This document shows, piece by piece, positions 1 through 16,972 of a stretch of DNA of 32,402 bases. Position 1 is the stretch's first letter. Every line of letters begins with the position of its first letter. Below the pieces are notes generated by a model, which was given only the letters and a program-made list of their open reading frames with translations, had not been told where the DNA came from and ran no database searches. The position numbers and the translations under genes were made by a program. Source of the stretch: a virus; the IMG/VR virus record IMGVR_UViG_3300044843_000258, positions 1-32,402 of that record. The stretch is one strand, 5' to 3'.

Positions 1-140
1 ATAATGAATTTCATCCATATAATAACTATTTTTAGGGTTATCAGGTAATGAGTTAATTGCATCTTTACAATCTTTAATAATGTAGTTAAGACTTTCTATT
101 GAAAGTTTTTTAACTTTTTTCATATACTCTGAATGGTTAA
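1..140. repeat. terminal redundancy, left copy
   Basis: These 140 bases recur at the right end of the window (32263-32402). The only difference I find is T27 here against C32289 there. The repeat lies inside one small minus-strand gene that reads continuously across the junction, so the molecule is circular, circularly permuted, or has short direct terminal repeats. A plain assembler overlap would normally be exact, so the mismatch suggests sequence variation in the sampled population or a read error. Confidence 0.9.
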
Positions 141-2319: not shown

Positions 2320-2320
2320 T

Positions 2321-2953: not shown

Positions 2954-4334
2954 TTATTTCCTCAGTTTGTTGGTTTGATAATGGTTGGAAACCTATCTCG
3001 GCGCGTTGTTCGTCTTGCGTTAATATTTGGTCAATCTTAATATCGCCAGCAAATGAAACGGGCATACCCTTAGATATATCAAGCGCAATACTATTCCAGT
3101 TATTGCCCAAAAATTTATTTGCGTCTTGAATAACGGGGTTTAAAAATTTCCCTAAAAACATTCTCTGCAATGGTCGAATAACTGTATTATAAACAATATC
3201 AAACTCAGAACGTATTTGCTGGTTTGTTCCTAAACTACCCGCAGTTTTTAAGCCAGTCAAAGCAACAGTCCAACGATTAGCGGATATAATAGATTCTTGA
3301 GAAAGTTTTTGTAATTGAGTAAATTCGCCGTCATAATTGTTATTTAAAATTTGCACGTCAGCCTTTGAGGTTTCATCCCTTAAAGCCTGAATAAACATTT
3401 TTGAATTATTGCCAGTTCCCGTAAAGCAACCTTTCATTGCATTTACAACTTGTTGCGCTTCCTCCTCATTTGTTGAGCCAAATAAGGAAATTATTGCGCT
3501 GGGCGTAAATCCATTTTCAAATTTTGATTGATTAAATTTTGGTATTCTATATTCAAGTTCAGCCCAAATTTTTGCGCTTACCCAATCAGGAATACCCCAA
3601 TACATTAAAGTTGGTTCGTAATTTTTTAAATGTATTATTGATTTTTCAACGCCACCGCCAAAATCATCAAAAACGGGAAATATAGGTAAATCAATAGGCG
3701 CGGTCGGGGTTGTATAGTAATGGCTTTCAAACTCTGAATTTACCCCAATATGAGTTGGCGCATAATAGTTTTCGCTTGCCTTTTTTGGTCTGCACCATGT
3801 AATTGGCAAATTTCTAATATAATAAACCTTTGTATTTCCTACCTGAATGCGCGTTAATTCTAAAAAAGCATTGCCGAAACTTTTAAAATCAGTTATTGTT
3901 TTTACCGTAATTTCGTCTATACTTTCGCCCTCAGGGTTTAAACGCATCAACCAATTATTTAGACTTATCTCAGCCTCAATACTTATATTATCCTTTTGCG
4001 CCTCTGCAAGCCTTACGGACGGCAATACGTTCATAGATGAACGCGGGACAACGTAATAACCGTCGCCCATGAAATAATTAACCGTTTGTTGTATTATCGC
4101 GCTTTGAGTTACTGAGTTATTACATATTGCTTGCAACCTATCCAAACGCCAGTAATCAAGCGTTGAAAATGGTATGTATTCAATAACCGAACTATCCAAA
4201 TTTTGTTTGGTAGGCTCTCTGAAAATGTCATCGGCTAAAAATGGACTAAGCCCAAAACCCGCAAAGGCTTGAACGTTTTTTTTACTTTCGCCTTTTGCGT
4301 TTCCTCTATTTATCGCCGTTTGTTTCCTCTGCAT
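2937..4334 (-). CDS. portal protein
   Basis: A protein of about 465 residues with features of HK97-type portals: an N-terminal clamp region (VIEYIPFSTLDYWRLDRLQ), a central part that includes NLPITWCRPKK and WGIPDWVSA, a long C-terminal helical region (QLQKLSQESIISANRWTVAL), and an acidic, Gln-rich tail. The portal forms the dodecameric DNA entry ring at one capsid vertex and docks the terminase. The frame is open further upstream to a TTG at 4379, but the ATG at 4334 has an A-rich leader, overlaps the previous gene by only 29 bases, and is preferred. It lies downstream of the capsid and tail-tube genes and of a terminator-like hairpin, which would keep its level low. It is about 17 kb from the terminase, unlike the usual adjacency. 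Confidence 0.8.
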   Translation of the reverse strand: MQRKQTAINRGNAKGESKKNVQAFAGFGLSPFLADDIFREPTKQNLDSSVIEYIPFSTLDYWRLDRLQAICNNSVTQSAIIQQTVNYFMGDGYYVVPRSSMNVLPSVRLAEAQKDNISIEAEISLNNWLMRLNPEGESIDEITVKTITDFKSFGNAFLELTRIQVGNTKVYYIRNLPITWCRPKKASENYYAPTHIGVNSEFESHYYTTPTAPIDLPIFPVFDDFGGGVEKSIIHLKNYEPTLMYWGIPDWVSAKIWAELEYRIPKFNQSKFENGFTPSAIISLFGSTNEEEAQQVVNAMKGCFTGTGNNSKMFIQALRDETSKADVQILNNNYDGEFTQLQKLSQESIISANRWTVALTGLKTAGSLGTNQQIRSEFDIVYNTVIRPLQRMFLGKFLNPVIQDANKFLGNNWNSIALDISKGMPVSFAGDIKIDQILTQDEQRAEIGFQPLSNQQTEEINDNTN

Positions 4335-4500
4335 TGTCAATATGTTTATTTGCAATTTTTTTACCCTTTGCAACCTCAATAAACTTATGTCCTAAATGGT
4401 ATAAATGTTCTAATTGTTCAGCGGTTGCCTCTTTTAAAAGTACGGAAAATTTATTGCAATGAACCGTTATATTTTCTTTTCCTTTAATAACTTTAAACAT
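4306..4500 (-). CDS. small conserved-type protein upstream of portal
   Basis: A 64-residue protein starting at the ATG at 4498-4500 (MFKVIKGKENITVH). The longer open frame upstream starts within a terminator hairpin and is unlikely to be used. It has a compact first half (HCNKFSVLLKEATAEQLEHLYHLGH) and a Lys-rich end that overlaps the portal start. No domain recognised. The arrangement (after the tail-tube terminator, overlapping portal) suggests a head accessory protein, unproven. Confidence 0.55.
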   Translation of the reverse strand: MFKVIKGKENITVHCNKFSVLLKEATAEQLEHLYHLGHKFIEVAKGKKIANKHIDNAEETNGDK

Positions 4501-4510
4501 ACTATTAAAA

Positions 4511-4552
4511 TTTAAAAAAGAGGAAACCAACCAAAAGATTGATTCCCCCTTT
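4511..4552 (-). terminator. terminator/attenuator between tail-tube and portal genes
   Basis: On the minus strand a 16-bp stem (arms 4537-4552 and 4517-4532, complete but for four G-T pairs) with a TTTT loop is followed by TCTTTTTTAAATTTT. It lies just after the tail-tube gene and 10-20 bases before the next ATG, with no room for a separate promoter. It probably lets only part of the transcripts continue into the low-copy portal and connector genes. Confidence 0.8.
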
Positions 4553-4571
4553 ATAGTGATTTGATTGGGTT

Positions 4572-5105
4572 TTATACGGGGATAACAACCGCGCCGTCAA
4601 GAGGTAAAGCCTGAACCGTAGTTCTTGCCGTTAAAGTTACCGTTGCTTGGTTTTGGTCATTAATTGCCGTTCCAGTTGTAGTTTCAAAATTTGTCAACTG
4701 CGCTGGGAATCCGATTCCTAAAGTTGTTAAATCGTTTGTAGTTCCCCAAATCCAACGACCACCGCCGTTTTCTTGGTGTATAATTACAAACCCGCAACAA
4801 CACGCTTGCATTTCAGCAATAGCATCGCGTACATCCTGAGAATGGCAAGGAAATGAACCTACCAAAGTTTGCGTAATAACTGTATTACAATTTGTTCTTT
4901 CGCCAGTTTCGGTAAAACTTGCAGTTTCTTGATAAGGCTGAAACTCATAAAATTTCGTAAGCGAAACCATTGAGATTGCAGTTACCTCGCCTGAAGTAAT
5001 TGTCAAAGATGCAACATCCTCAACTGATGCAAGCCAAAATTTATCTAAACCGCCCGCGCAACTTAATGAGCAACTTACTGAATAACCCGTTGATAAACAA
5101 CTCAT
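4572..5105 (-). CDS. probable major tail (tube) protein
   Basis: A 177-residue protein beginning MSCLSTGYSVSCSLSC, with LDKFWLASVEDVASLTI, FYEFQPYQETASFTET and a C-terminal beta-rich end (NQATVTLTARTTVQALPL). This arrangement of a Cys-containing N terminus, FYxxxxxxETAS and a GxAxxDxNxxTVTLT-like end is typical of a protein encoded beside the capsid gene in Bacteroidetes phages, which I take to be the tail tube subunit. It carries nine Cys, including a CCC triplet near residue 108, suggesting disulfides or metal in the particle. It lies between capsid and portal and is followed at once by a strong terminator, as expected for a highly expressed structural gene. Confidence 0.6.
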   Translation of the reverse strand: MSCLSTGYSVSCSLSCAGGLDKFWLASVEDVASLTITSGEVTAISMVSLTKFYEFQPYQETASFTETGERTNCNTVITQTLVGSFPCHSQDVRDAIAEMQACCCGFVIIHQENGGGRWIWGTTNDLTTLGIGFPAQLTNFETTTGTAINDQNQATVTLTARTTVQALPLDGAVVIPV

Positions 5106-5129
5106 ATTTTTATTATTTTAAATTGTTAA

Positions 5130-6119
5130 TTAATATGCTACGGTCAAAAATTCGTTATGCTTATAGTTAAACCCTAATTGCATTTTAACCTTGCTTAAAA
5201 GTTTTTCTTGGTATCTTTCGTACCATGTTTCAACCTGAGTAAATGGGTCTTGAATATCAGTTCCCAAAGTAAGGTTTTTGCGCTCAGTATATAAAACAAA
5301 GTTTGCGTTTGAAATACCCAAATATTGCTGAGCGTATGCTTGCCAATCATACATAGGTTTTACTTCAACTCCGTTAAACATTAATTGACTTGTTCCGTCA
5401 ACCAATAGGCTTAAATGACCCGCTGAGGAAATACCGTTGTTTTGTAGGTCAATCAAATATTGCTCATAAACGTTTGCGCTCACTAACAATACTTTTCTAT
5501 TTGACGGCGTTGCTTTCAAATAATTTGTTGCGTTGTTATAAACTGCATTCAATAAATCAATACCGTCGCCAGCGCCCAATGGAGTACCTGAATTTGAGTT
5601 GATGTAAGGAATCAAGTTGTTAGCAACTAACTGAGGTAAATAAACTGTCCACATACCGTCAACTAAATTTACATCATTGTCAACGCTTGACTTATCGCCA
5701 TAAAACGCAAGCAAAAGCATTTGTTTTTTAACCGCCTGAACCATGCGAGTTAAAAGAATATCCATAAAAATAGTACCCTCCATATTGTCGCGTCTTGTTC
5801 CTACATTTTGCAATTGCTGATACATTGTATTTTTGAACTCATCAAAACATAATTCAACGTTTGCCTTTACGGATTCAGTTTCAATGCATCTTTCATAGAT
5901 TGCAAAGTTTCCTTTTGGCGTCCAACCGCAGCCGTCAACCGTTTGTAAGATATTGCCCATTTCTGAGGCATAACCAAACTTTTGTTTTTTGTTTACGAAA
6001 AGGTAGGTATCAAATAAATCCTTTACATCAGCGTCAAAAAATACGGGGTTTAAAAACAACTGTTGCGCTTGTTCCCCTACTAAGTTTATATTAAAACTTC
6101 CATTTTCAATATTTGCCAT
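5130..6119 (-). CDS. major capsid protein (HK97-type)
   Basis: A 329-residue protein with the length and layout of an HK97-fold major capsid protein: an N-terminal part to about residue 60, a spine/A-domain (VELCFDEFKNTMYQQLQN, then TRMVQAVKKQMLLLAFYGD), and a C-terminal region ending FNYKHNEFLTVAY. Segments such as RKVLLVSANVYEQYLIDL and FNGVEVKPMYDWQAY match the A-domain of phage coat proteins. There is no long N-terminal delta domain, which fits with scaffold being supplied by the coiled-coil tail of the protease encoded two genes upstream. It is flanked by the decoration and tail-tube genes in one operon. Confidence 0.75.
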   Translation of the reverse strand: MANIENGSFNINLVGEQAQQLFLNPVFFDADVKDLFDTYLFVNKKQKFGYASEMGNILQTVDGCGWTPKGNFAIYERCIETESVKANVELCFDEFKNTMYQQLQNVGTRRDNMEGTIFMDILLTRMVQAVKKQMLLLAFYGDKSSVDNDVNLVDGMWTVYLPQLVANNLIPYINSNSGTPLGAGDGIDLLNAVYNNATNYLKATPSNRKVLLVSANVYEQYLIDLQNNGISSAGHLSLLVDGTSQLMFNGVEVKPMYDWQAYAQQYLGISNANFVLYTERKNLTLGTDIQDPFTQVETWYERYQEKLLSKVKMQLGFNYKHNEFLTVAY

Positions 6120-6145
6120 TTTTCTAAATTTTTTAAATTAATAAA

Positions 6146-6943
6146 TTAAACTAAGGTATAACCGATTGTTATTGTATAGGCTGCATTACTTGGGTCATCG
6201 CTATTTACAGTAATAGTACCAGTTTTTGCGCCAGCGGTTAAGTTTGTGTTTACAGTTCCCGTATAAGTAATATAACTATTTGGGAAAATTGTTGAACCGC
6301 CAATTGTAGGTTTAACAAAGGTTAAAACCTGAGATGTTTTACCTAATACTCCAACGGTTAAAACATGACTTCCAACGTTCCAAACGTTAATTGAGAATGC
6401 CTCAGATGTACCGATTGAGAAAGTACCTAAATTGTAAGTACCGCCGTCAGCAACAATTGTTCCGTTTGTTTGTCTCAACTGAGCAACTTGCGCGCCTAAT
6501 GTTACAGTATTAACTGAGTACGGGCTTTGAGTTACGTTATAAGGGAAACTAAATTCTTGGCTGCAAGGGCAATCAACGGCAACATTATCGGTTGTTTCAA
6601 TGATAACCTGAACCGTCCAGTTTACATTTGCATTTAATGAGGTTGTATCAATTGTAATGCTTGAAACCGTACCAGTTCCAACGCCAGCAACAAAATTGCC
6701 TTGTCCGTCATTAATTACAACTTTAATAAATCTTGTATCATAACCGCTTGTAGGGCTTGCAAAAGTTACAACAGTTGAACCCGCAGTTGTTTCAACTTCA
6801 GCAACCAATTGAAATCCGTCGCAACAACAATCAGAAACTTTTAAAATTTCTGCATTTGCTGGGTTTGCTAATGGGTTTGTTCTGCTGAAAAAATATTCAG
6901 GACTATTACCCTCTGTATAAAAATTTTCTTTACTGAATGCCAT
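6146..6943 (-). CDS. Ig-like capsid decoration/fibre protein
   Basis: This 265-residue protein lies between the protease and the capsid gene. Residues about 165-265 look like an Ig-like HYDIN/choice-of-anchor-D domain: a thin beta-sandwich with FSINVWNVGSHVLTVGVLG and the typical ending GTITVNSDDPSNAAYTITI. The first half is also beta-rich (STVVTFASPTSGYDTRFIKV) and has two Cys clusters (DCCCDG near 38-42, CPC near 124-126). Ig-like domains are frequent on outer surfaces of tailed-phage particles, where they bind glycans or mucus. Position next to the capsid gene suggests a head decoration protein or head fibre. This is an inference and it could instead belong to the tail. Confidence 0.6.
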   Translation of the reverse strand: MAFSKENFYTEGNSPEYFFSRTNPLANPANAEILKVSDCCCDGFQLVAEVETTAGSTVVTFASPTSGYDTRFIKVVINDGQGNFVAGVGTGTVSSITIDTTSLNANVNWTVQVIIETTDNVAVDCPCSQEFSFPYNVTQSPYSVNTVTLGAQVAQLRQTNGTIVADGGTYNLGTFSIGTSEAFSINVWNVGSHVLTVGVLGKTSQVLTFVKPTIGGSTIFPNSYITYTGTVNTNLTAGAKTGTITVNSDDPSNAAYTITIGYTLV

Positions 6944-6954
6944 AGTTTTAAAAT

Positions 6955-8277
6955 TTATCTTTTATTGAATAATTGTTTTAACATCGCATTTACTGAATCA
7001 AGTTGCTCAGCGCTATATTTGTTTTCAACCTTTGCGCTGGTTTGTTGATTTTTATAAATGTTTAATTTTCCTTTTGCTTGCATTTCCATTTCGTCAACCT
7101 CTTTTGATTTAGCCTCAAATTTGGCTTCAAGGTCTGCCAGTCTTGTTAATGCCTCTTCAAGTTTTGTTTGTAGTTCTTGAATCATTAAATCCTTTTCCTT
7201 TACAACTTCGTCCATTTTGTCAAGGTCTTTGTTTTTTTCCTCCTCGCCAATAGATAGTTCCTTTTCGATTTCAATTTCCTCAGCCCTAAACCAGTTAAGG
7301 AAAGAATCCAATAATCTGCTTGATTTTTTAGCTTCCATTTTAAATAAATTTGTTGGTAAATTTTTGTAATTCGTAGCTTGCGCTCTCAATCTAAGAATTG
7401 CCTCATTATGCATTTTGACAATTTTATCTTCATTTTCAACGTACCCGTCAACTAAACCCAAATCAATTGCTTGTTCTGCGCTTAACCACGTTTCCGCGTC
7501 CATTAATTTTCTTACCTTGTTTTTGGTTTGTTCCCTTGACCCGTTTACATATTTGCCTGATGCCTTAATTTTATCTAAATAGGCGTTTAGCATATTTGTA
7601 TCCAGTTGTTCCATAGTTTCGGCATTTTTTAATAAATCATGCTTATTGCCCTCAACCATTCCCCAACTATTATGAATCATGATATAAGTACCTTTTGAAA
7701 CTAATGCAACTTTTGCCTTTACTAATAACATCGTCGCAATTGAGGCAACAAAGCCCAAACCCTTAGCAATCGTATTCCCTTTATAATTAGCAATCATTTC
7801 GCCCATAGCCATACCCTCAACAACCGAACCCCCCTCGCTGGCAATATTAATTACAACCTCATTTGGCGCATTTTGGTTAAGGAACTCAGCAACCAATTGT
7901 TTATTGTAATTACTGAATGAATCAATTTGCCCGACAATATTTAACTCTGCTATCATATTTTTGCTTTGCGCTTTTTTGTCAATTTGTTTTAGTTTTCTTA
8001 TTGCCCATTCTATACCCTCAGTACCGCCCCATGCATCCCACATCAACCCACCGCAACCCTCATTATACGGAACATCTTTGTGCTGCTGATGTCTCTTAAA
8101 AGATGCCATTCGGGCAATCGTATCGCTGGAAATGGGTTCGCGGTTTGCTAATTGGTTTGCCCTTGCTTTTCCAGTTGCCTCGCCACAAGTTCCCCAGCCA
8201 TTTTCCCCAACCCATTTTAACGCTCTTTTGGCGTTATCGCTTGCGCTTTGAGGATAGTCATTATATGAATCAGCCAT
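6955..8277 (-). CDS. capsid maturation protease (ClpP/S14 type) with N-terminal phage domain and C-terminal scaffold
   Basis: A three-part 440-residue protein. Residues 1-100 form a phage-associated domain with RANQLANREPISSDTIARM and LMWDAWGGTEGIEWA. Residues 108-290 are a ClpP-like serine protease: Ser179 in GFVASIATML, His202 in MIHNSW, and a following Asp (226 or 235) for the triad. Residues about 315-440 are charged coiled coil (EKDLMIQELQTKLEEALTRL), the expected scaffold that is cleaved away during prohead maturation. In-frame ATGs ahead of the coiled coil, for example MEAKKSSRLL near 7338, could give a free scaffold protein as in lambda C/Nu3. It is the first gene of the head operon, after a terminator. 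Confidence 0.85.
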   Translation of the reverse strand: MADSYNDYPQSASDNAKRALKWVGENGWGTCGEATGKARANQLANREPISSDTIARMASFKRHQQHKDVPYNEGCGGLMWDAWGGTEGIEWAIRKLKQIDKKAQSKNMIAELNIVGQIDSFSNYNKQLVAEFLNQNAPNEVVINIASEGGSVVEGMAMGEMIANYKGNTIAKGLGFVASIATMLLVKAKVALVSKGTYIMIHNSWGMVEGNKHDLLKNAETMEQLDTNMLNAYLDKIKASGKYVNGSREQTKNKVRKLMDAETWLSAEQAIDLGLVDGYVENEDKIVKMHNEAILRLRAQATNYKNLPTNLFKMEAKKSSRLLDSFLNWFRAEEIEIEKELSIGEEEKNKDLDKMDEVVKEKDLMIQELQTKLEEALTRLADLEAKFEAKSKEVDEMEMQAKGKLNIYKNQQTSAKVENKYSAEQLDSVNAMLKQLFNKR

Positions 8278-8293
8278 TAAAAAAACATTTGTT

Positions 8294-8323
8294 CAAAAAT
8301 ATAACAACTTGTTTTCAAAAATT
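8294..8323 (-). promoter_or_regulatory. possible promoter for the head operon (weak)
   Basis: Between the terminator and the protease start the minus strand has TATTTTTG (8294-8301), a match to TAnnTTTG. The nearest TTG (8316-8318) is only 14 bases upstream rather than about 19, so this is tentative. The location, downstream of a strong terminator and just before a large operon, is what makes it worth listing. Confidence 0.3.
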
Positions 8324-8330
8324 TATGAAA

Positions 8331-8361
8331 TAAAAAAAGGCTTGCCAGTTACGGCAAACCT
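8331..8361 (-). terminator. intrinsic terminator before the head operon
   Basis: On the minus strand a 9-bp stem (AGGTTTGCC pairing with GGCAAGCCT, one G-T pair), a six-base loop and a run of seven T. It closes the small-gene region and separates it from the protease/capsid genes, which must have their own promoter or be read through. Confidence 0.88.
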
Positions 8362-8384
8362 CCCATTAATAATAAACAAAAAAA

Positions 8385-8633
8385 CTAAACTTCAATATTT
8401 TCGTAGCAATTATGACCGAAAGCCATACCGCACAAATGTACTATTATATAAAATAAAGTTAAGGTAAAACATTCGTCCTGAATAGCAAATATCAAAGGTA
8501 ATTGCATAAGGTAAAAAATTACCTGAGTATAAAAACGGTTAAACGTTTTATCGTCCATTAATCTCATTAAGGCTATTTGACCAATGCAAGCCCCAAAGAA
8601 AATTAAAATATATTTGAAAACTATTAGTATCAT
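8385..8633 (-). CDS. small membrane protein, three predicted TM segments
   Basis: An 82-residue, very hydrophobic protein with three likely membrane helices (about residues 2-20, 36-52 and 56-73). Its ATG overlaps the stop of the preceding gene by four bases, so they are probably translated together, and it is the last gene before the terminator. The size and topology would suit a holin, or a membrane protein blocking superinfection. No family recognised. Confidence 0.6.
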   Translation of the reverse strand: MILIVFKYILIFFGACIGQIALMRLMDDKTFNRFYTQVIFYLMQLPLIFAIQDECFTLTLFYIIVHLCGMAFGHNCYENIEV

Positions 8634-8896
8634 TTGTTGTACATTTTATCGTTAAATTCGGTTTCAGTTATTTCTGCATTTAAAAATTCCAAAACGGGTT
8701 CAATAAGTTTTGCAAGGTAGTAAATTTCGTTTGCCGTTCGGGTCAAATTATATTTGGATTCATTTTTCAAATCCTCATGAAATTCCATAAGCCCAAAATA
8801 CAAATCGTTTGGCTTTACTTTTTTGCCAGCACTTTCAACCTCGTAGGTTATATGCTGGGCAATCAAAATTAAATCATTTACAATTTCTTTTTTCAT
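8630..8896 (-). CDS. small unknown protein
   Basis: An 88-residue, mostly helical, charged protein (KPNDLYFGLMEFHEDLKNES). It starts with the shared leader T6-AAC-N3-TAAAA-N9-ATG found before several genes of this phage. It is coupled to the membrane protein downstream by a four-base overlap. No domain or function recognised. Confidence 0.6.
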   Translation of the reverse strand: MKKEIVNDLILIAQHITYEVESAGKKVKPNDLYFGLMEFHEDLKNESKYNLTRTANEIYYLAKLIEPVLEFLNAEITETEFNDKMYNK

Positions 8897-8932
8897 TTTT
8901 AGTTATTTTAATGGTTAAAAAATATTTGCGCT

Positions 8933-9175
8933 TTAATCTTTGCTTCCATAGGTTTCATTATAGTATTGTTCTGCTTGTTTAGATGCTTCCATTTCTAATG
9001 GGTAAATCAATCCTAATAAATGGGCATCTATTATCTGCTCCTTCTCCATTTCTTTGGCTTGTTTAAATGCTTTTGTAGGTATTTTAATATACATATTTTC
9101 ATTCGTAATTGAATCAACATTAACTTCTAAAAATTGATTAATTAACCATTCTACTGCTGTTTGTTTCTTTTCCAT
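8933..9175 (-). CDS. small conserved phage protein
   Basis: An 80-residue protein (KKQTAVEWLINQFLEV, then AKEMEKEQIIDAHLLG and QYYNETYG) of a type I recognise as very common in flavobacterial phages and prophages, with no known function. It lies just downstream of the last attC-like site and shows no complementary cassette ends of its own, so it looks like the resident phage gene bordering the inserted cassettes. Confidence 0.65.
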   Translation of the reverse strand: MEKKQTAVEWLINQFLEVNVDSITNENMYIKIPTKAFKQAKEMEKEQIIDAHLLGLIYPLEMEASKQAEQYYNETYGSKD

Positions 9176-9224
9176 CTTATTTTAGTTTAATGTATTTTTA
9201 GTTTTAGATACCGCAATTAAAACT

Positions 9225-9278
9225 GCGGATAACAGTCAGTAAGCGAAATAAACTTCGCCTACTTTTGTGTTATAAGCC
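9225..9278 (-). other. attC-like recombination site D (54 bp)
   Basis: In coding orientation it runs from the core GGCTTATAAC (9269-9278) to GTTATCCGC (9225-9233). Between them is a near-perfect hairpin: AGTAGGCGAA (9254-9263) pairs with TTCGCTTACT (9238-9247) around a short loop. Size and layout resemble short integron attC sites (R''-stem-R'). It closes the cassette carrying the DUF7448-like gene: its core is the exact complement of that cassette's first bases, GTTATAAGCC at 9722-9731. Confidence 0.65.
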
Positions 9279-9281
9279 ATT

Positions 9282-9680
9282 TTAGAACGACCTTGCAACA
9301 ATCCAAAAACCACCATAATATCCGTTATGTTCGTTATGGTTAGCCATTTGAAAAACTCCGTTGCTTGTTTTGACATCTAAGAACTGTACTTCGTGTTCTC
9401 CGTATTCGTCTTCCATATTTGGAGCGTATTTTAATTCAAAATCTAAAAGGGTTGCACCTTCAAAATCAGACAAATCGTCATCGGTTCGCATATATCTATC
9501 TTCGCAACAAGACTGACCATCATCAAACATTTTCAACCCAGTCCCATCTGTAAATTTGAAAAGCAATTCATTGTCTTCTAATTTAACCATTTCAATAGTT
9601 TTTCCAAGTGCTGATTTTACAGCGTTTACAGTTTCTTTGTTTCCACCAAGCGACTGTATCATTACTCCTAATCCTAACAT
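9282..9680 (-). CDS. DUF7448-like cassette gene
   Basis: A 132-residue acidic protein. The signature FDDGQSCCEDRYMRTDDDL, then VQFLDVKTSNGVF and NEHNGYYGGFWIV, matches a small protein family I know from bacteria and phages as DUF7448 (name from memory). No biochemical function is known to me; the conserved Cys pair and Asp/Asn/His residues suggest a metal or small-ligand site. The gene is the cargo of the third cassette and stops a few bases before the core of attC-like site D. It was probably acquired with the cassette rather than being a phage structural gene, despite its position inside the late region. Confidence 0.75.
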   Translation of the reverse strand: MLGLGVMIQSLGGNKETVNAVKSALGKTIEMVKLEDNELLFKFTDGTGLKMFDDGQSCCEDRYMRTDDDLSDFEGATLLDFELKYAPNMEDEYGEHEVQFLDVKTSNGVFQMANHNEHNGYYGGFWIVARSF

Positions 9681-9721
9681 AATTTTACATTTAAATTGTT
9701 AAGCCAAACTCAGATAAAAAC

Positions 9722-9822
9722 GGCTTATAACAGTGGTTTGGCAAAATACCGCCACAAGCCTTTGTTCTATAATTCAACATTCTGCAAGGCGGTACTTCGC
9801 CAAGCCACAGGACGTTAGTGGC
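9722..9822 (-). other. attC-like recombination site C (101 bp)
   Basis: The cores are GCCACTAAC (9814-9822) and GTTATAAGCC (9722-9731). The arms 9731-9753 and 9788-9810 form a stem of about 23 bp with one mismatch and three G-T pairs. The TAA inside the first core is the stop codon of the lipoprotein gene. Confidence 0.68.
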
Positions 9823-10132
9823 TATTTTTTGAAAACTTAACAGTATCTCCAATTTTCAACCCTAAATCACCACCAATTCTACAAGAATAAGACTTGTTTG
9901 TAGAATCAACTACAACTATATTAATTTTAGCATAACTTAAAGAACCGTCTAATTGGCTAATTGCAACAACAACTGTTTCTCCTTTGCATTGGTTTAGCAT
10001 TGACGAAAAAGTTTTATATTCTCCGTCATCGTAAGTTTCAGATGATTTAGTTCCTATTTTAGAGCAAGATGTAAATAAAACAGCCACTAACAACGTGTAT
10101 AAAAAATGGCTTCTAAGTTTTAAATTTTTCAT
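9815..10132 (-). CDS. predicted lipoprotein, cassette cargo
   Basis: A 105-residue protein with a short basic N terminus (MKNLKLRSHF), a hydrophobic stretch (LYTLLVAVLF) and a lipobox ending TSC at Cys23: a type II signal peptide for lipid attachment. The mature part is about 80 residues and beta-rich, with two further Cys (near 49 and 85). No acidic lipoprotein-export signal follows the Cys, so it may stay on the periplasmic face of a membrane. The start codon, its TAAAA box and the signal peptide all lie inside attC-like site B, and the stop codon is the TAA of the core of site C. Phage lipoproteins such as T5 Llp and TP-J34 Ltp block superinfection, so that role is possible here, by analogy only. 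Confidence 0.75.
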   Translation of the reverse strand: MKNLKLRSHFLYTLLVAVLFTSCSKIGTKSSETYDDGEYKTFSSMLNQCKGETVVVAISQLDGSLSYAKINIVVVDSTNKSYSCRIGGDLGLKIGDTVKFSKNSH

Positions 10133-10220
10133 TTGTTTTGTATTTTAAAGTTTAGTAATAAATTTAATGGCTTGGTTTATCGTTTACGCCACTTCTTATA
10201 CACGCAAAACGTTATGTGGC
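10083..10220 (-). other. attC-like recombination site B (138 bp)
   Basis: The cores are GCCACATAAC (10211-10220) and GTTAGTGGC (10083-10091). The arms 10188-10204 and 10094-10110 are complementary at 15 of 17 positions, the other two being G-T pairs. The loop is long and contains the start of the lipoprotein gene. The first core supplies the stop codon of the AP2-like gene. Confidence 0.65.
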
Positions 10221-10412
10221 ATTATAAAAATCATCGTATGCTTTTTGTGCATCTTCTTCTGTTTTGTGTTGAGATATTGTTTTTAAATTACTTCCCTGTC
10301 TGACACGTGCAATATAATTTCCTTTTGGAGTTAAAAATACACCTTCTTTATATGCCCAATCTGTAATTAATGGTTTTTTTCGTTTTTGTTTCATTGAATA
10401 TTCTGAATACAT
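10212..10412 (-). CDS. AP2-like DNA-binding protein, cassette cargo
   Basis: A 66-residue basic protein from the ATG at 10412 (MYSEYSMKQKRKKPL); a second ATG at 10394 is also possible, and a GTG at 10433 lies in the attC core and is less likely. Residues from about 20 onward (GVFLTPKGNYIARVRQGS, then HKTEEDAQKAYDDFYNA) have the AP2/ERF-like pattern: three beta strands then a helix with AxxAYD, as found in phage and mobile-element HNH endonucleases. No nuclease domain is attached, so this is a stand-alone DNA-binding module. Cargo of the first cassette; its stop TAA belongs to the core of site B. Confidence 0.65.
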   Translation of the reverse strand: MYSEYSMKQKRKKPLITDWAYKEGVFLTPKGNYIARVRQGSNLKTISQHKTEEDAQKAYDDFYNAT

Positions 10413-10421
10413 AATAATAAC

Positions 10422-10558
10422 GCCACATAACACATTATAAAAAACAGTGGGGTGTTAGTGGTCTTTTTAGCCCATCTGCTTCGATTAAACATTATTTTAA
10501 TTTGATTGGTGGGTGTTTCAAAATCCCCACCGATTTTTTATAATCAAACGTTATAGCC
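10422..10558 (-). other. attC-like recombination site A (137 bp)
   Basis: The cores are GGCTATAAC (10550-10558) and GTTATGTGGC (10422-10431). Arms around ATTATAAAAAA are complementary, then after a few unpaired bases GTGGGG pairs again, so the stem is interrupted as in attC sites. The first core overlaps the TAA stop of the upstream phage gene. This is the least regular of the four sites and may be the entry point of the array. Confidence 0.55.
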
Positions 10559-10763
10559 TTTCTATTTCTTGTTTTACTTCTATGTAGTAATTATAGATTT
10601 TATCTGTAGAATAAAAGGCTACCTTTAGAATTTCATCAACTGCAATTAATGCACATTCTTTGGCTGAATCAATATATTCTTCCCACCCTAATACTTCATG
10701 AAACACTTTGGTATGAGGAATAAATTTATTTATTAACTCTTCTTTTTTTTCTTTTGGTGTCAT
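10551..10763 (-). CDS. small conserved phage protein
   Basis: A 70-residue helical protein (SAKECALIAVDEILKVAF, then YIEVKQEIERL) of a type I recognise as frequent in flavobacterial phages, function unknown. It carries the shared leader with TAAAA nine bases before ATG. Its stop codon forms part of the core of attC-like site A, so the cassettes were inserted directly after it. It has no complementary core at its own 5' end and so does not itself look like a cassette. Confidence 0.65.
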   Translation of the reverse strand: MTPKEKKEELINKFIPHTKVFHEVLGWEEYIDSAKECALIAVDEILKVAFYSTDKIYNYYIEVKQEIERL

Positions 10764-10783
10764 TGTTCTATGTTTTATTAGTT

Positions 10784-10802
10784 AAAAATTCCTATAAATA
10801 GG
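10784..10802 (-). terminator. weak hairpin/U-run, possible terminator
   Basis: On the minus strand CCTAT-TT-ATAGG followed by AATTTTTAAC. The stop codon of the upstream gene lies in the stem, and the U-run is the start of the next gene's leader. The short stem makes it weak. Confidence 0.35.
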
Positions 10803-11052
10803 GATACTCAACCTTGCTATAATAGTGATGCAAATAATGCCTGATTGTTGTATCAACCAGTTTATCCAGTTCTGAAATTTCAGCGTTGGTAAAACTTGCA
10901 ATAGTTTTAAAATGGTCTAACTCTTTGCCCTCAACATCAAAGAAAGTAAGGTCATCGGCTTCGTAGCGTTCCTCTACGCCAGTTTCAAGCTCGTAGGGTT
11001 GGAATGAGTAATTGTTAATACGAATCGTTAAGTTTTTAAATTGAAAATCCAT
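10792..11052 (-). CDS. small unknown acidic protein
   Basis: An 86-residue protein starting at the ATG at 11050-11052 (MDFQFKNLTIRINNYS). A longer reading from a TTG would translate the promoter itself, so it is rejected. It is rich in Asp and Glu, looks mixed alpha/beta, and ends HYYSKVEYPYL. No domain recognised. It is the first gene after operator/promoter copy 2 and so heads a separately controlled unit inside the late region that includes the cassette array. Confidence 0.7.
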   Translation of the reverse strand: MDFQFKNLTIRINNYSFQPYELETGVEERYEADDLTFFDVEGKELDHFKTIASFTNAEISELDKLVDTTIRHYLHHYYSKVEYPYL

Positions 11053-11067
11053 AGTTTTATGTTTTAA

Positions 11068-11114
11068 TGTTATTAATGTATAACAAAGATACAAAGACTT
11101 TTTTAATATCAAAA
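11068..11114 (-). promoter_or_regulatory. promoter with palindromic operator, copy 2
   Basis: The best promoter of the four. The -33 TTG (11110-11112) is followed, 18 bases later, by TATCTTTG (11084-11091), a full match to TAnnTTTG. The -7 box overlaps the inverted repeat TGTTAT-N6-ATAACA (11068-11085). The expected start of transcription falls inside the palindrome, so a bound repressor would block it. Confidence 0.82.
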
Positions 11115-11155
11115 CATTTTGGAATATTTTTTTAAAATTTTTTTTAAATATTTTT

Positions 11156-11491
11156 TTACGGGAATTTTAAACGATTCTTTCTAAAGTAAACGTAATAGTT
11201 TGCCAGTATAGAATAAATCGCTCTTTGCTCAATGCCAGTTTCCTTTTGGATAATCTTTATAGCCTCAGCCCTTGTATTGTCTTGTATGTATTCTTTGTAT
11301 AGTTCCAGCACAACAAACCTATTAATTATTGATTCCCTTAGTACGTTATGAACAACCAAAAATTTAAGCAAAGATTTAGTTTCGATATGCAATTTTTCAA
11401 CCTGACAATATTCTAAATATTGCTCATTGATTAAATCAATAAAGGTTAAATTATTTTTTCTTTGTCCTAAGATTTTATAATCAATTACCAT
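11156..11491 (-). CDS. unknown protein, possible helix-turn-helix
   Basis: A 111-residue, mostly helical protein. The C-terminal part (NTRAEAIKIIQKETGIEQRAIYSIL) reads like a helix-turn-helix, so a regulator or small DNA-binding protein is possible. It overlaps the preceding gene by seven bases and follows the tape measure gene. Just downstream is operator/promoter copy 2. No family recognised with confidence. Confidence 0.6.
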   Translation of the reverse strand: MVIDYKILGQRKNNLTFIDLINEQYLEYCQVEKLHIETKSLLKFLVVHNVLRESIINRFVVLELYKEYIQDNTRAEAIKIIQKETGIEQRAIYSILANYYVYFRKNRLKFP

Positions 11492-11730
11492 TCTTTGACT
11501 TTTTCTTTAAAATACTTTTGAACATCCCCAACGCATACGCCACAATTTATATTTTGCTTAACGGTTTGTTCTAAGTCTTTGCCCGCAATTAGTTTGCCTA
11601 CAAACCTATAATAATAACGCATCAATTTTAATAAATCCAAATGACTGAAACGAATAACTGTATTTTGGTTGCGCTTTACTATTTCTTTTATTTCCTCGCG
11701 GTATTCAACGGGTATTTCTCTAATATACAT
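11485..11730 (-). CDS. small unknown protein after tape measure
   Basis: An 81-residue basic protein (EYREEIKEIVKRNQNT, then LLKLMRYYYRFVGKL), with two Cys in CGVC near residue 66. Encoded 11 bases after the tape measure gene and overlapping the next gene. Helical and charged; function unknown. By position it could be a tail accessory protein, or it could pair with the next gene in regulation. Confidence 0.6.
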   Translation of the reverse strand: MYIREIPVEYREEIKEIVKRNQNTVIRFSHLDLLKLMRYYYRFVGKLIAGKDLEQTVKQNINCGVCVGDVQKYFKEKVKEW

Positions 11731-11741
11731 AATTTAATATT

Positions 11742-14700
11742 TTAAAAACTTGCGTTTGCTTTAATCAATTTTTGGTCGCTACGGCTTCGTTCAATATCTT
11801 GGTCAGTTGTTGCAGTATATACAACCTGAATCCTATCAATGCGCGAATTAACCGCGTTAATTGTGTTTTCCATTGCAACCGTTCTCATTTGCTCATTAAC
11901 TACCTGACGGTTTGAATCCGCAATCAATGAAGACGGCGCGCCTACTATACCGCCATTCGCAAAATTTGGTATGTTAGCGCGTTTTAAATTTGAATACCCT
12001 ACCTTTGACTGCTGGGATTTATTTAATACAACCTCGCCAGTTTTAAGCGTTGCCAAAACGTTATCGCCGTTTGACAATGGCTTTATATTTCCTTTATTTG
12101 TTACGCGCCCGCCGTTATTAAATTGAACGACATCTTTGCCTAATATACCAGCAACGCCACCCTCTGCCAAAGGTTGAGCCGCAATCGCCGCCGTTTGTAT
12201 CGCCCCTAATACTCCAACAATTGCAGCCAAAACGGGATTCGCTAAATTTGCCGTAACTGCAACCGCCGTATTGATAATGGATTCAATTATTGCCGTTGCT
12301 TTTTTGGCTTTCTTTTGCTCGGTTTCAATGCGTTCTTTTTCCTTTGCAAATTCCTCTTGTTTCTTTAATTCATTATTTATTTGTTCCTCTAAATAACGCG
12401 CTTGCAACCCCGTTGCGTTTTGCAGTTGTTCCTCTAAAACAGTAACGGCTTCCTCAGATTTTTTTACTTGGTCATCAATCTTTGCCAGTTGACCAGCAAA
12501 GGCAATATCAGCAAATTGGTTTACTAAACCAATAACTTGCTGGGTATATTCCGCAACCTGACTAATTGTATTTTGTAGGTTTTCTAATTTCTTTTGGTCT
12601 GAGGCTTTTGCATCATCAACCCTTTTTTGGTTTTCAGCCTTTTCATTATCAGTTTGTTCCTTTTGTAATTTGGCTAATTCAGTATTTAATTTTTGCTTGT
12701 CCTGAATGATTTGGTTATTAACCTCTTCCTCAGCAAATTTCTTATCGCCTATTGTTTGTAACTCTTTTTCAATCGCGCCCTTTTGAATCGTAAGTAAAGC
12801 GTTTTGGTATTCCTTTTCTTTTATTAAACCTTTGGCATATTGTTCCTCAATTTTTAAGGTTTCAAGTTCAGCCAGTTGCTGAATTAATTTTCTTTCATTT
12901 TCAATTTTAGCAAACCTTAGTTTTTCCTCAGAATCAAATTGCTCATTATTAATTTTATCCAGTTCGGTAAAATATTGCTGGTTTAAATTAGTCAATGCGC
13001 GATTTGTATCAACCTCAACTTGTTCCCTTGTTTTTGCATTTTGCTCAACTAAGGTTTTATACTCAGTTGAATTTTTGCCAAACAATTTTAACGCTTCGTC
13101 TTCGCGTTTCTTTTGTTCGTCGGTTATGGTTGTTAAAACATCTTTTATTTCTTGCTTTTCCTTTTCGTTTGCCGTCTTTAATTCAACGCGCCTTTTTTCA
13201 AATTCATTTTTGAGGTTATCGGTTATTAACTGCTGGGTCTTTTGTTGTAAATCAATTTGTATTTTGGCTTGTTGCTCTATAAATTTACTTTCGTCCTCAA
13301 TGAATTTTTGTCTATCTTTTTGCGCTTGTTCTGACCTTTGTTTTTGTTCCTCAGCATTTTTCTTTTGTTCCTCAGCGCGTTTTTTCTCTGCATTAATTCG
13401 GTCTTGTTCTTGTTTTAATGCCGTTGCCTCAGCCTTTGCCTTGTCTTGATTTGCTTTATTTATTTTGTCAATATCGCCCAATACTTGTTTGGAAAAATCG
13501 CCTTGACTTTTGCCCGCTTGGTCTGTTTGTTTTGAGAATATACCTAATGCCTCGCCCGCTTGTCTTCCATATTTTATAATTTGTGTAAGCCCTGAAACAA
13601 TAGTTGTCAAACCAGTATATAAAATTTTTACGGGCGTTAATATTGCATTTATTGCAGCGCCTAATATATCAAATATAGAAACGCTTGAACCTAATTCAGT
13701 GTATAATTCACTAAAGGCATCAATAAGCGGTTTTATTGAATTATCATATAAAGGTTTTAATACATTGTCATACAAGTATAAAAACAAATCTATTAAGTAC
13801 GTTTGAACTGCATTTCCTAAATTTTCAGCAATTGCCCCAAACTCAGCCAAACGTTGCGCCCCGCTAATTTGACTATCTACGAGTTCCTTATTTGTTGAAA
13901 GTAATTCTCTTTGTTTATCAGCAAATGCGCCAGTTGCCTGACCAGCGTTTGCATAGGCTTCGGGGTATTCGGCAATATTAGATAAAAACGCATCACTTGA
14001 TTCCGTACCTCTTACCAAACCCTTTTCAATTTGCTTTATAGCATCGTCAAAACTTACGCCCGTTTTTTCGCTGATTTGTTTTGCTGAATCAATTATTGTT
14101 TTTGAATCAACGTCAAAGGTTTTTGATAAGGCGTTTATATCAACCGTAAGCGCATCAAGTTCGTCCCCGCTTGCGCCAGTAAAACCGCGCAATTGTTGCT
14201 GGGTAGATTCCAGTTCCTTATTAAATTTATTTAATTCGCCAATGGCTTTAAAGATTGCCCCGCCCGCCTTAAATGCCACAAACGCGCCAATAGCAGCAAC
14301 GCCAAACGCGCCGAGTTTACCCTCTGAATCCTCTAAAATACCAGCGTATCTCCTTAACCCTCTACCCGCTAAATTAAATACCTTTGGGTAGTTTCCAACG
14401 TTGCGTTGAAATTGCCCAACCGAACCGTCAACCTTTTTTAAAGTTTTATCCAGTTCGTCAATTTCTTTTTTTAAAGCCTTTGCCTCCTTTGTCGAACCTT
14501 TGCCCTCTACGGCTAAATTTTTATAATCCTTGCGTAATCTATTAAGTTTATTACTCAATTGGTCATAACTACCTAATGCCTTAGATTGTTCCCTGAATGA
14601 TTTATTTAAATCAGTTTGTTGTTTTCTTATTGCGGCTTGTTCTGCTTTTAACTTTGCTAATTTTTCGGCTGATTTTGCGTATTCCTCAGTTGAGGTATCT

Positions 14701-14804
14701 AAGGCGTTCATTTCCTTAGTTGTTTGTTTTATTGCAGCGTTTAAATCATTCAATGATTTTATACCCTCAATATCAATAGTAAAACCGATAACTTTATTTG
14801 CCAT
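11742..14804 (-). CDS. tail tape measure protein
   Basis: The largest gene, 1020 residues. The N terminus is a long Lys/Glu coiled coil (about 1-140). A hydrophobic Gly/Ala-rich part follows (FGVAAIGAFVAFKAGGAIF, about 170-190), then a region typical of tape measure proteins (GFTGASGDELDALTVDINAL, TGVSFDDAIKQIEKGL, about 205-285). A further hydrophobic stretch (330-400), a very long coiled coil rich in Lys, Glu and Gln (about 450-830), a hydrophobic segment (AVTANLANPVLAAIVGVLGA) and a Gly-rich C-terminal part complete it. It sets tail length and is ejected with the DNA. The length implies a long-tailed (siphovirus-like) particle. It is transcribed after the distal tail genes instead of before them. 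Confidence 0.9.
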   Translation of the reverse strand: MANKVIGFTIDIEGIKSLNDLNAAIKQTTKEMNALDTSTEEYAKSAEKLAKLKAEQAAIRKQQTDLNKSFREQSKALGSYDQLSNKLNRLRKDYKNLAVEGKGSTKEAKALKKEIDELDKTLKKVDGSVGQFQRNVGNYPKVFNLAGRGLRRYAGILEDSEGKLGAFGVAAIGAFVAFKAGGAIFKAIGELNKFNKELESTQQQLRGFTGASGDELDALTVDINALSKTFDVDSKTIIDSAKQISEKTGVSFDDAIKQIEKGLVRGTESSDAFLSNIAEYPEAYANAGQATGAFADKQRELLSTNKELVDSQISGAQRLAEFGAIAENLGNAVQTYLIDLFLYLYDNVLKPLYDNSIKPLIDAFSELYTELGSSVSIFDILGAAINAILTPVKILYTGLTTIVSGLTQIIKYGRQAGEALGIFSKQTDQAGKSQGDFSKQVLGDIDKINKANQDKAKAEATALKQEQDRINAEKKRAEEQKKNAEEQKQRSEQAQKDRQKFIEDESKFIEQQAKIQIDLQQKTQQLITDNLKNEFEKRRVELKTANEKEKQEIKDVLTTITDEQKKREDEALKLFGKNSTEYKTLVEQNAKTREQVEVDTNRALTNLNQQYFTELDKINNEQFDSEEKLRFAKIENERKLIQQLAELETLKIEEQYAKGLIKEKEYQNALLTIQKGAIEKELQTIGDKKFAEEEVNNQIIQDKQKLNTELAKLQKEQTDNEKAENQKRVDDAKASDQKKLENLQNTISQVAEYTQQVIGLVNQFADIAFAGQLAKIDDQVKKSEEAVTVLEEQLQNATGLQARYLEEQINNELKKQEEFAKEKERIETEQKKAKKATAIIESIINTAVAVTANLANPVLAAIVGVLGAIQTAAIAAQPLAEGGVAGILGKDVVQFNNGGRVTNKGNIKPLSNGDNVLATLKTGEVVLNKSQQSKVGYSNLKRANIPNFANGGIVGAPSSLIADSNRQVVNEQMRTVAMENTINAVNSRIDRIQVVYTATTDQDIERSRSDQKLIKANASF

Positions 14805-14806
14805 AA

Positions 14807-16972
14807 CTAAGGTATGTATTTTGTTAAAACTGTTGTATTCTGAATATTATTAACCTCTGTACCGTCGCCCTTTGCGTCATAGGTTAAATACGTTTGCGTA
14901 CTACGCTGATTTACTACACTAAATGAATTAATCTCATTTAGAATATAATTATCGCCATGTATTTGAACGGCATCCCTAAACGTTAAATTATTAAGCATAA
15001 GAATATCCCAAAAAATATTAACCTGAACTTGTTTGCCGTATAACCTACGAATTAACTCAGCCAAATAAAAGCGTTCCATTAACCCCTTAACATAAACCCC
15101 GTTTACAGTTTCTGAATTAAAAACTAAACTTTGGTTAAATTGGTTAATATAGTCTTGCATATATGCAACGGGGAATGATACAATTATTGTTGCTGGGCTT
15201 GCGCCAAATGGGTTTTTAATAACTACTTTTGGCGCGTTTGAATAACCATTATAAAAAGCATCTTTAAATAAAATTCTGGGCACTATTTCATAATTTGCCT
15301 CGCTTGATAACGGGTTTTCTAAATAATTGCTTGACCAAACAAAAGGAACATAAACGGGTGACGGCGAATTAACATCAGTTATTTCCTCGTCAAAAAATAA
15401 TAACGTAGGCGCAAAAAAAGGATTCTCAATTACATTTAAACCATCTTTTAACCTCGTGACCGGGAAGTTAAATTGTGCTCCCGCCATAGGGACATTTTGT
15501 CCCTGGTTTAAAGCCTCAACCGTAGAGTCTGAACTATCATCTTTATAAACTAATTTTATGCTTTGCTCAAAGTCATCCACATTAAATATTTCGCCTGAAA
15601 TTAATAAATCAACTTTGCGCGTTATATCATTTACTCCTTGATTATAAAACCCTTGTTGAATATTATTATATAAGGGGTATGTATAAAGGTAATTATCTGC
15701 TGGTTCAATTGTAACCGTCTTTAAAGCAACATCAGTCTCAAAAGTTAAATTAAATAAATGCGCTAAACCTTTTATAAAATCTAAAGCCTTTAATTCTTTA
15801 TTTATTATATATTTAAAATCAATTGTTATAGGGTCTGCAATAATAACTTGACCGAATACGCTCATAGTTATTTTATATAAAGTTGTAGGCGATACAATAG
15901 CCGATGCAAGCCATAAACTAAATGTTTCCCCAGCAACCGCCTGAACAACTGAACTAATTTTGACTATATTCAAATTTCCATTTAATCCAAAAAAAGTATC
16001 AAAATATGTATTTGGAACGGCTGCGGCTGGGGCTGGGTTACCATTTCTACTAATCCAACCCCTTAATTGATAATTAAACGTAGGTTCTGTAATTTCAATA
16101 TAAATTTCAATTCTATAATAACCGTCTTCGGGAACAGTATAAAAGCCAGTTGCATTATTATACGGATTGCCGCCAATCGTTGGAACTACTATATTATTTG
16201 GCAATTTATAAGGAAATTGATTGCCATTAAAATTAACGCTTGGCTCTTCTCCAGTATAATTTAAATATTCCTCGCCATATAAATCGTCGGGTATAGGCTT
16301 ATCGTAATCTATTGGCAAAGGCATTATTAATTGCCTAAACCAATCCGTATTCATAAAATTAGAAACTAAATTATACCCTAAACCTAAAAATATTTTATCA
16401 ACTATTGTCTTAATAAATAACGCGGGCGTACTTTCTTTAAATGTATCAACTTGACCAAATACTGCCCAATCTTTAAACTTCATAACAAACTGACAATAAT
16501 TATCTCCAACAAAATGAGTATTGCCCCAATCTGAATAATTTTGTGTAGTTCCAAATGTTATATTTCCAAAATCGTATTCATAGATATACTTATTTTTTAG
16601 GTCTGAAACCCAATCTATATTGTTGCCATAAAAAGAAACTTTATAAACTAAACCGCGCCAATAAAAACGGTCTTGTTGCGTTGTAACGCTTCGCATCTGA
16701 GCCTTACCCTCAAAGAATGGTAAACCGTCAACTATTATACTCGCGGGCAATAAATCCTGATTTTGCAAAGTAACTTCACCCACATCAAAAAACCTTTGAA
16801 AAATTAAATCGTTTTGTTTTGTCGCTGGCAACTCAAAGGAATACTCAGAACGCGAACCGCTATTTATAGCAATGCCGTCCCTATCTTTTAAAGCAAAGGT
16901 TAAATTTAGATTTACTTCGTTTTGAGGTAAATCAGCAATTAACCCGTCAATATATATTTGAATCCTTGTCAT
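14807..16972 (-). CDS. large tail protein (baseplate/hub type)
   Basis: A 721-residue protein starting with a short beta region (MTRIQIYIDGLIADLPQNEV) followed by NSGSRSEYSFELPATKQND, a pattern I know from the large tail proteins of Bacteroidetes phages. It has aromatic-rich beta segments, a middle insert (about 240-380) that could be a jelly-roll carbohydrate-binding-like domain (GFYTVPEDGYYRIEIYIEIT), and a C-terminal part ending NSFSVVNQRSTQTYLTYDA. It overlaps the preceding tail gene by one base and is three bases from the tape measure start, so these three are co-expressed. A tail-tip or baseplate hub role is inferred. Confidence 0.7.
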   Translation of the reverse strand: MTRIQIYIDGLIADLPQNEVNLNLTFALKDRDGIAINSGSRSEYSFELPATKQNDLIFQRFFDVGEVTLQNQDLLPASIIVDGLPFFEGKAQMRSVTTQQDRFYWRGLVYKVSFYGNNIDWVSDLKNKYIYEYDFGNITFGTTQNYSDWGNTHFVGDNYCQFVMKFKDWAVFGQVDTFKESTPALFIKTIVDKIFLGLGYNLVSNFMNTDWFRQLIMPLPIDYDKPIPDDLYGEEYLNYTGEEPSVNFNGNQFPYKLPNNIVVPTIGGNPYNNATGFYTVPEDGYYRIEIYIEITEPTFNYQLRGWISRNGNPAPAAAVPNTYFDTFFGLNGNLNIVKISSVVQAVAGETFSLWLASAIVSPTTLYKITMSVFGQVIIADPITIDFKYIINKELKALDFIKGLAHLFNLTFETDVALKTVTIEPADNYLYTYPLYNNIQQGFYNQGVNDITRKVDLLISGEIFNVDDFEQSIKLVYKDDSSDSTVEALNQGQNVPMAGAQFNFPVTRLKDGLNVIENPFFAPTLLFFDEEITDVNSPSPVYVPFVWSSNYLENPLSSEANYEIVPRILFKDAFYNGYSNAPKVVIKNPFGASPATIIVSFPVAYMQDYINQFNQSLVFNSETVNGVYVKGLMERFYLAELIRRLYGKQVQVNIFWDILMLNNLTFRDAVQIHGDNYILNEINSFSVVNQRSTQTYLTYDAKGDGTEVNNIQNTTVLTKYIP

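Follow-up and report, generated by a model that had tools for sequence, protein, structure and literature searches.

The IMG/VR virus record IMGVR_UViG_3300044843_000258 was analysed over its full length of 32.4 kb, which is referred to here as the window. It is a tailed phage with a Bacteroidota host, and its late genes are located on the minus strand. The ends of the window (1-140 and 32263-32402) form a direct terminal repeat with 99% identity over 140 bp, which suggests a complete circular or terminally redundant genome. Two resident phage genes at 10763-10551 and 9175-8933 flank three small genes (10433-10212, 10132-9815 and 9680-9282) and four stem-loop sites, S4 to S1, all on the minus strand. 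A match to the tyrosine recombinase family PF00589 was not found anywhere in the 32.4 kb, and with the four sites of our own model and no recombinase the content of the window would be of the CALIN type.

The four sites share one organization on the minus strand: an R'' core ending in AAC, 5-6 nt, a stem arm, a loop, the second stem arm, approximately 2-4 nt and an R' core beginning with GTT. Their coordinates are given on this coding strand from the AAC core to the GTT core plus 9 nt on either side, and the E-values are those of our own covariance models R1 and R2 and are rough. Site S4 (10420..10561) comprises R'' AAAGGCTATAAC, the stem-loop and R' GTTATGTGGCGT (R2 E-value 7e-19); R'' and the stop codon of the resident gene 10551-10763 overlap. 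Site S3 (10080..10222) comprises R'' ATGCCACATAAC, a stem-loop holding the start codon of the second cassette gene, and R' GTTAGTGGCTGT (1.7e-21). For S2 (9720..9825) the cores are R'' ATAGCCACTAAC and R' GTTATAAGCCGT on either side of the stem-loop (2.6e-14), and S1 (9222..9280), the resident recombination site, carries the stem ACAAAAGTAGGCGAAGTTTATTTCGCTTACTGACTGTTATCCGC after AAC (1.1e-5). The R' cores of S4, S3 and S2 are exactly complementary over 10 bases to the R'' cores of S3, S2 and S1, respectively, while all remaining core pairings have only 4-6 matching bases. The original prediction had named four palindromes and three complementary core pairs with matches of 9-10 bases; all of them are present where it had placed them, with 10 bases in three of three consecutive pairs.

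The covariance model R2 was trained on 150 sites of other phage contigs, none of them from the window. When both strands of the 32.4 kb were scanned with it up to an E-value of 10, S1-S4 were matched and nothing else. Folding of single-stranded DNA was compared with dinucleotide shuffles for both strands, and all four sites fold better on the minus strand (z -2.8, -2.5, -3.1 and -3.3 for S4, S3, S2 and S1) than on the plus strand (z -1.8, -0.4, -2.1 and -2.2). A tRNA or tmRNA as the source of the hairpins was rejected, as none was found.

The variable block between the resident sequences (9269..10549, minus strand, 1281 bp) consists of three cassettes. Cassette 1 (10211..10549, minus strand) contains the S4 stem, R', the ORF 10433-10212 (73 aa) and R'' GCCACATAAC; its boundaries run from AAC| to AAC|, as mapped on cassettes shared by other arrays (see below), and its cores match at 10/10 bases. 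The encoded protein weakly resembles the end of an HNH endonuclease (phrog_99, E-value 0.0039). Cassette 2 (9814..10210, minus strand) is composed of the S3 stem, R', the ORF 10132-9815 (105 aa) and R'' GCCACTAAC. The N-terminus of its protein looks like a lipoprotein signal peptide, and the protein shares 70% amino acid identity with a cassette gene in the phages G001 and G002. At the nucleotide level the similarity to G001 spans exactly from GTT to AAC. A phage contig of 270 kb, G005, has a site with 90% identity to S3 that includes the stem and the beginning of the lipoprotein-like gene. Cassette 3 (9269..9813, minus strand) contains the S2 stem, R', the ORF 9680-9282 (132 aa) and R'' GGCTTATAAC. 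This ORF encodes a DUF7448 protein (PF24240, E-value 4.9e-19), and DUF7448 genes are also present as cassettes with other core sequences in L002/G003, in L007 and in the array L116 of a metagenome-assembled genome (MAG).

The same locus was inspected in relatives which are approximately 95-97% identical to the window and vary in cassettes at this spot. L010 is 95-96% identical at window positions 2003-9281 and 10549-15819 and lacks the three cassette genes; it has instead one short different cassette with an ORF of 50-odd codons inside the loop of its own site. The same single small cassette is present in L239, and in L009 other cargo replaces the block of the window. In the window, L009, L010 and L239 identity resumes at one base, ...TATAAC|ACAAAAGTAGGCG (...AAC|ACAAAAG), and the S1 stem is common to all four with different cargo before it. 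Since identity resumes at the same base in four records, the S1 stem is regarded as resident in the phage, with cassettes entering at the preceding AAC. Two earlier assignments are corrected: the ORF 9815-10132 has its start within S3, and the S1 stem is part of the resident phage and not of the last cassette. An exact empty-site version of the window phage was not found, the nearest relatives carrying other cassettes; its junction would read GGCTATAAC|ACAAAAGTAGGCG. In some units, in L010 (6740-6990) as well as in the phage Freya_2 (L245/L246), the whole ORF lies within the site loop, and gene and site form one hairpin.

Sites of the same class were found in longer arrays of other phages, which were reached via relatives of the cassette genes. 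G001 and G002 carry 20 and 17 sites, and terminase, portal and tape-measure genes are present among these two related contigs. G003 and G005 have shorter arrays; both encode a Dda-like helicase and G005 an RNA ligase. Compensatory changes were observed at 17 of 18 stem pairs (36 sites). At least 7 exactly complementary core bases were counted in 192/230 adjacent phage pairs and in 80/112 chromosomal pairs, and in 6.9% of randomly paired sites of the phage loci. The strand of the site is the better-folding strand for 222/274 phage and 87/133 chromosomal sites. Only 29/274 phage sites and 13/133 chromosomal sites have the integron core GTTRRRY, and the conserved part comprises just GTTR/YAAC.

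The unit of exchange was defined by cassettes occurring in different surroundings. G001 and G002 share two cassettes with 99.8% and 98.5% identity and different neighbours, and G003 and L209 share one with 97.9% identity, likewise with different neighbours. The cassettes common to each of these pairs start after AAC, comprise the stem, R', the gene and R'', and extend as far as the following AAC; identities in shared AAC-to-AAC cassettes reach 100% (range 97.9-100%). A chromosomal pair, L138/L145, with 92.9% identity over 1833 nt also starts at AAC. Read in the direction of the phage genes, the mobile unit is thus stem plus gene, with the crossover in the AAC of the coding strand. AAC on the coding strand corresponds to G^TT on the other strand, so the predicted position is that of the integron crossover, but with the strands exchanged relative to the genes. 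A systematic count of boundaries was noisy, being dominated by partial homologies and by one repeated IS element, and individual whole-cassette cases and the Freya phages were relied on.

A crossover in the coding-strand AAC means that the phage genes are inverted relative to canonical cassettes, and the ORF directions agree with this. ORF and site point the same way in 139 of 140 clear cases from phage arrays, the site being located 5' of the gene, and for 73 of the 139 the ORF begins within the site before it. In arrays on chromosomes the ORF is directed against the site in 67 of 72 cases and with it in 5, which is the canonical integron arrangement. The p-value for this difference (6e-48) is only nominal, because the cassettes of one array are not independent. 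The five chromosomal exceptions include the DUF7448 cassette of the MAG array L116, a phage-type cassette within a bacterial array. A plausible reason for the inversion, in our interpretation, is phage transcription crossing the array in that direction. Two other readings of the gene direction were dropped: that an insertion had been reversed by accident via the fixed S1 stem, as the shared cassettes and the Freya phages show the crossover to lie normally in the coding-strand AAC, and that reversed ORFs are a feature of the class as a whole, as this holds for phages only and chromosomal arrays are canonical.

Gain and loss of cassettes can be followed in the cultured Freya phages, which come from one Polaribacter strain and have genomes of 44.0-48.9 kb with 66-78 ORFs (PMC8776804). 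The words "integron" and "insertion" are absent from that description. The genomes are short-read assemblies; Freya_1 and Freya_9 were compared over the whole genome and the other Freya genomes around the array locus only. All 43,978 bases of Freya_1 align to Freya_9 without a mismatch. Between fixed anchors, the stretch before the recombinase gene has a length of 88, 930, 1832, 2304, 4128 and 4723 bases in Freya_1, 2, 5, 6, 8 and 9, respectively. In all six genomes the shared prefixes at the locus end with ...AAC and the shared suffixes reach AAC|ACCCC, a point located just 5' of the recombinase gene, and blocks inserted at AAC| points are the sole differences at the locus. The sets are nested, with that of Freya_1 contained in Freya_2 and that of Freya_2 in Freya_5, while Freya_6 and Freya_9 extend Freya_5 and Freya_8 extends Freya_2. 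Such nesting is expected if a fixed attI-like point gains or loses cassettes singly or as small blocks. R2 matches sites in Freya_9, the best with a rough E-value of 3.7e-16. A fixed entry site beside a recombinase gene is accordingly indicated by the Freya alignments for the class, rather than for the window phage itself.

Linkage of arrays to recombinases was observed more widely. The G003 array terminates at a gene for a 266-aa tyrosine recombinase, which has at least 173 relatives in IMG/VR. In the 80 recombinase loci examined, every one of 281 sites lies on the recombinase strand, and after removal of duplicate contigs 225/228 sites (39 loci) are upstream of the recombinase gene. The recombinases of phage arrays form one clade (98/92) separate from the chromosomal ones, with Freya as a long branch; this clustering is partly ascertainment, because the set was gathered by similarity to one query. 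The array recombinases score 146-211 bits, in two blocks, against the integron-integrase family TIGR02249 (cut-off 265), and the set matches NF040815 at around its cut-off. In the chromosomal recombinase of G056, residues 188-245 of IntI4 (2a3v) have no aligned counterpart, and the protein aligns throughout to the archaeal XerA (5hxy) with no gap in the catalytic domain. Since the IntI insert is missing, XerA aligns throughout and the score is below the cut-off, these enzymes are named XerA/IntI-like and not IntI.

The genome scan for DUF7448 returned a single MAG, whose Bacteroidota order was then used as the centre of a survey. The model R1 matches sites in 62 of 148 sampled genomes of this order. 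Sites are present in 40/43 genomes with a strong recombinase match and in 22/105 without one (p 9e-17); the array counts per genome are lower bounds, as 21 candidates per genome were scored. In the chromosomal arrays inspected the recombinase is located at the AAC end, the XerD of the same MAG branches apart from the array-end recombinases, and a Chryseobacterium plasmid carries a recombinase and five strong sites. Several genomes, G128 among them, have multiple recombinase copies. The systems closest to that of the window are two: phage arrays encoding their own recombinase and the chromosomal arrays of this order.

Taken together, the block 9269-10549 very probably consists of three mobile cassettes that are moved at AAC by a tyrosine recombinase, next to the resident site S1. 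Each cassette would be a stem-loop site plus a small gene, terminated by the R'' core (..AAC). The recombinase would excise and insert these units by cutting the folded coding strand, probably in single-stranded form as integron integrases do, at AA^C (G^TT on the other strand). The circular unit would then recombine at the resident site, and the AAC immediately 5' of the S1 stem (9280-9222) would serve as the entry point for new cassettes. As the window phage has no recombinase, the enzyme is inferred to act in trans, and it could be supplied by a co-infecting phage with a recombinase-linked version or by a host chromosomal array. Sites, cores, unit boundaries, the fixed entry point, cassette gain and loss and the linkage of arrays to recombinases are apparent from the sequences; single-strand folding in vivo, the acting recombinase, its activity in trans and the gene functions are inferred. 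The circular-cassette reading had been proposed from the window alone, and it is borne out by relatives differing in whole cassettes, by the same core rule in long arrays elsewhere and by isogenic cultured phages that differ by insertions at exactly the predicted base.

Ordinary intergenic hairpins, i.e. terminators or RNA elements between vertically inherited genes, would account for the fact that the sites are intergenic and palindromic and that some follow stop codons, and the core matches would then be due to chance or a by-product of palindrome evolution. However, the matching cores are not the arms of one hairpin but belong to two separate hairpins that flank a gene, and only consecutive pairs match over 10 bases. 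Relatives without these genes at the locus, and isogenic phages gaining whole units at AAC points, are equally at odds with vertical inheritance. A match to a known terminator or repeat family, which had been named as an observation that would overturn the cassette reading, was not obtained for any Rfam family in the cassette region. An explanation by ordinary hairpins is thus barely conceivable. That each gene arrived by a separate transposon-like or homologous-recombination event, the hairpins being element ends, is highly improbable, although phage genomes are mosaic and IS110-family elements do occur in some chromosomal sites: the units carry no transposase, they are stacked head to tail with matching cores, and insertion takes place at a fixed site beside a tyrosine recombinase in a Freya backbone that is otherwise unchanged.

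The absence of a recombinase also means that the array of the window could be a static relic, that is, true cassettes captured once and passively inherited as a dead, CALIN-like remnant, and the three small genes of no clear function would fit such a history. Four close phages with three contents at one site (the window, L009 and L010/L239) speak against it, since they place the exchange recently on the scale of this phage group, and a dead remnant is considered unlikely. For the mobile cassettes favoured here, the wider picture is that Bacteroidota phages probably run an exchange system of their own, with a phage-specific XerA/IntI-like clade, inverted-gene arrays and small genes traded between unrelated phages (from 32-kb siphophages to at least 270 kb) as well as with host chromosomal arrays, and that the window phage uses this system without carrying the enzyme.

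Class 1 and sedentary chromosomal integrons, with IntI recombinase, attI and attC cassettes, likewise have cassettes in arrays, a fold-back recombination site in every cassette, a fixed insertion point by the recombinase gene, a G^TT/AA^C crossover and complementary R' and R'' cores in one cassette. They differ from the phage class as follows: phage cores retain only GTTR/YAAC and not RYYYAAC/GTTRRRY; the recombinase is without the IntI-specific insert and below the integron-integrase cut-off; the phage genes are opposite to the canonical direction at the crossover, with start codons often inside the site; and the window has no intI, whereas a related recombinase is linked to the arrays in other phages of this class. 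The system works like an integron, yet it is not canonical. The designation as an integron-like array holds for the cassettes and the core rule, but by formal criteria this is not an IntI/attC integron. The array-end recombinase tested aligns to XerA but, unlike XerA and XerC/D, is located at the ends of cassette arrays. In Treponema chromosomal integrons the integrase gene is turned (PMC3607928), whereas here the phage cassette ORFs are turned relative to their sites and chromosomal arrays are canonical.

Qi et al. 2023 (PMC9892861) have described integrons and CALINs in the genomes of both temperate and virulent phages, among them one of Polaribacter. Those arrays, with or without integrase, are also cassette arrays in phages; they were found by canonical attC models (IntegronFinder, HattCI), whereas in the present case an entire group of phages encodes, along with its arrays, a dedicated recombinase. 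An R1 scan of the Polaribacter phage P12002L from that study found no site of this class, and the Freya phages are unnamed in it. Methylases on phage cassettes were noted by the same authors, and one cassette of G001, which encodes a DNA methylase, is in line with this. Because phage CALINs were published in 2023 (PMC9892861), the general claim of cassettes in phages is not new; the expectation that an integrase-less array in a phage structural region was not well described applies to the present variant and not to phage attC clusters as such. As far as searched, the variant itself, the phage-encoded recombinase clade, the inverted genes and the Bacteroidota chromosomal counterpart are new: no paper naming this system was found among open-licence PMC papers. 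In Bacteroidetes proper, the only complete integron named by IntegronFinder 2.0 (PMC9024848) is that of Salinibacter.

If the reading is correct, the phage and chromosomal arrays (62/148 genomes) suggest a large overlooked integron-like lineage in Bacteroidota, a major one missed by present attC models. Rapid reshuffling of small accessory phage genes is usually attributed to homologous and illegitimate recombination, and the arrays point to a dedicated site-specific cassette system behind it. Stepwise gain and loss of genes is visible in cultured, otherwise identical phages, which opens the process to direct laboratory tests. As gene direction differs between phage and chromosomal cassettes, it can serve as a marker for genes passing from one pool to the other; one case is the DUF7448 cassette, of phage type but located in a chromosomal array.

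Several minor observations concern the cargo of chromosomal arrays. In L116 (MAG G006:C69) a 7.2-kb unit at 3166-10344 lies between the matching cores GTTAGGGGCTGG and CTTGCCCCTAAC and encodes an HsdR-, HsdS- and HsdM-like type I restriction-modification set together with an OLD-like AAA/TOPRIM ATPase; judged by its cores, it would be a whole defence locus in a single cassette. An IS110-family element (PF02371/PF01548) is present at L139 832-2076, 5679-6921 and 8307-9541 and at L140 890-2134 and 7675-8917, and its copies occupy the same position, just before the GTT core, in several sites of one chromosomal array. These insertions recall IS1111-attC elements, which target integron attC sites. 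Judged by eye, the recombinase-proximal cassette of G056 (L140, approximately 15144-16690, minus strand) seems to carry a reverse transcriptase gene, which may have a retron-like defence role. One chromosomal array of G128 (L141) holds three related genes for tyrosine recombinases (5676-6506, 11365-12225 and 15490-16371). In the window itself, a predicted 358-aa protein is encoded close to the terminase genes (24766-23690); by eye its N-terminal half is ABC-ATPase-like and its C-terminal half acetyltransferase-like, and an ABC/acetyltransferase-like protein of 362 aa is encoded close to the terminase of phage G002 (L113:640-1728).
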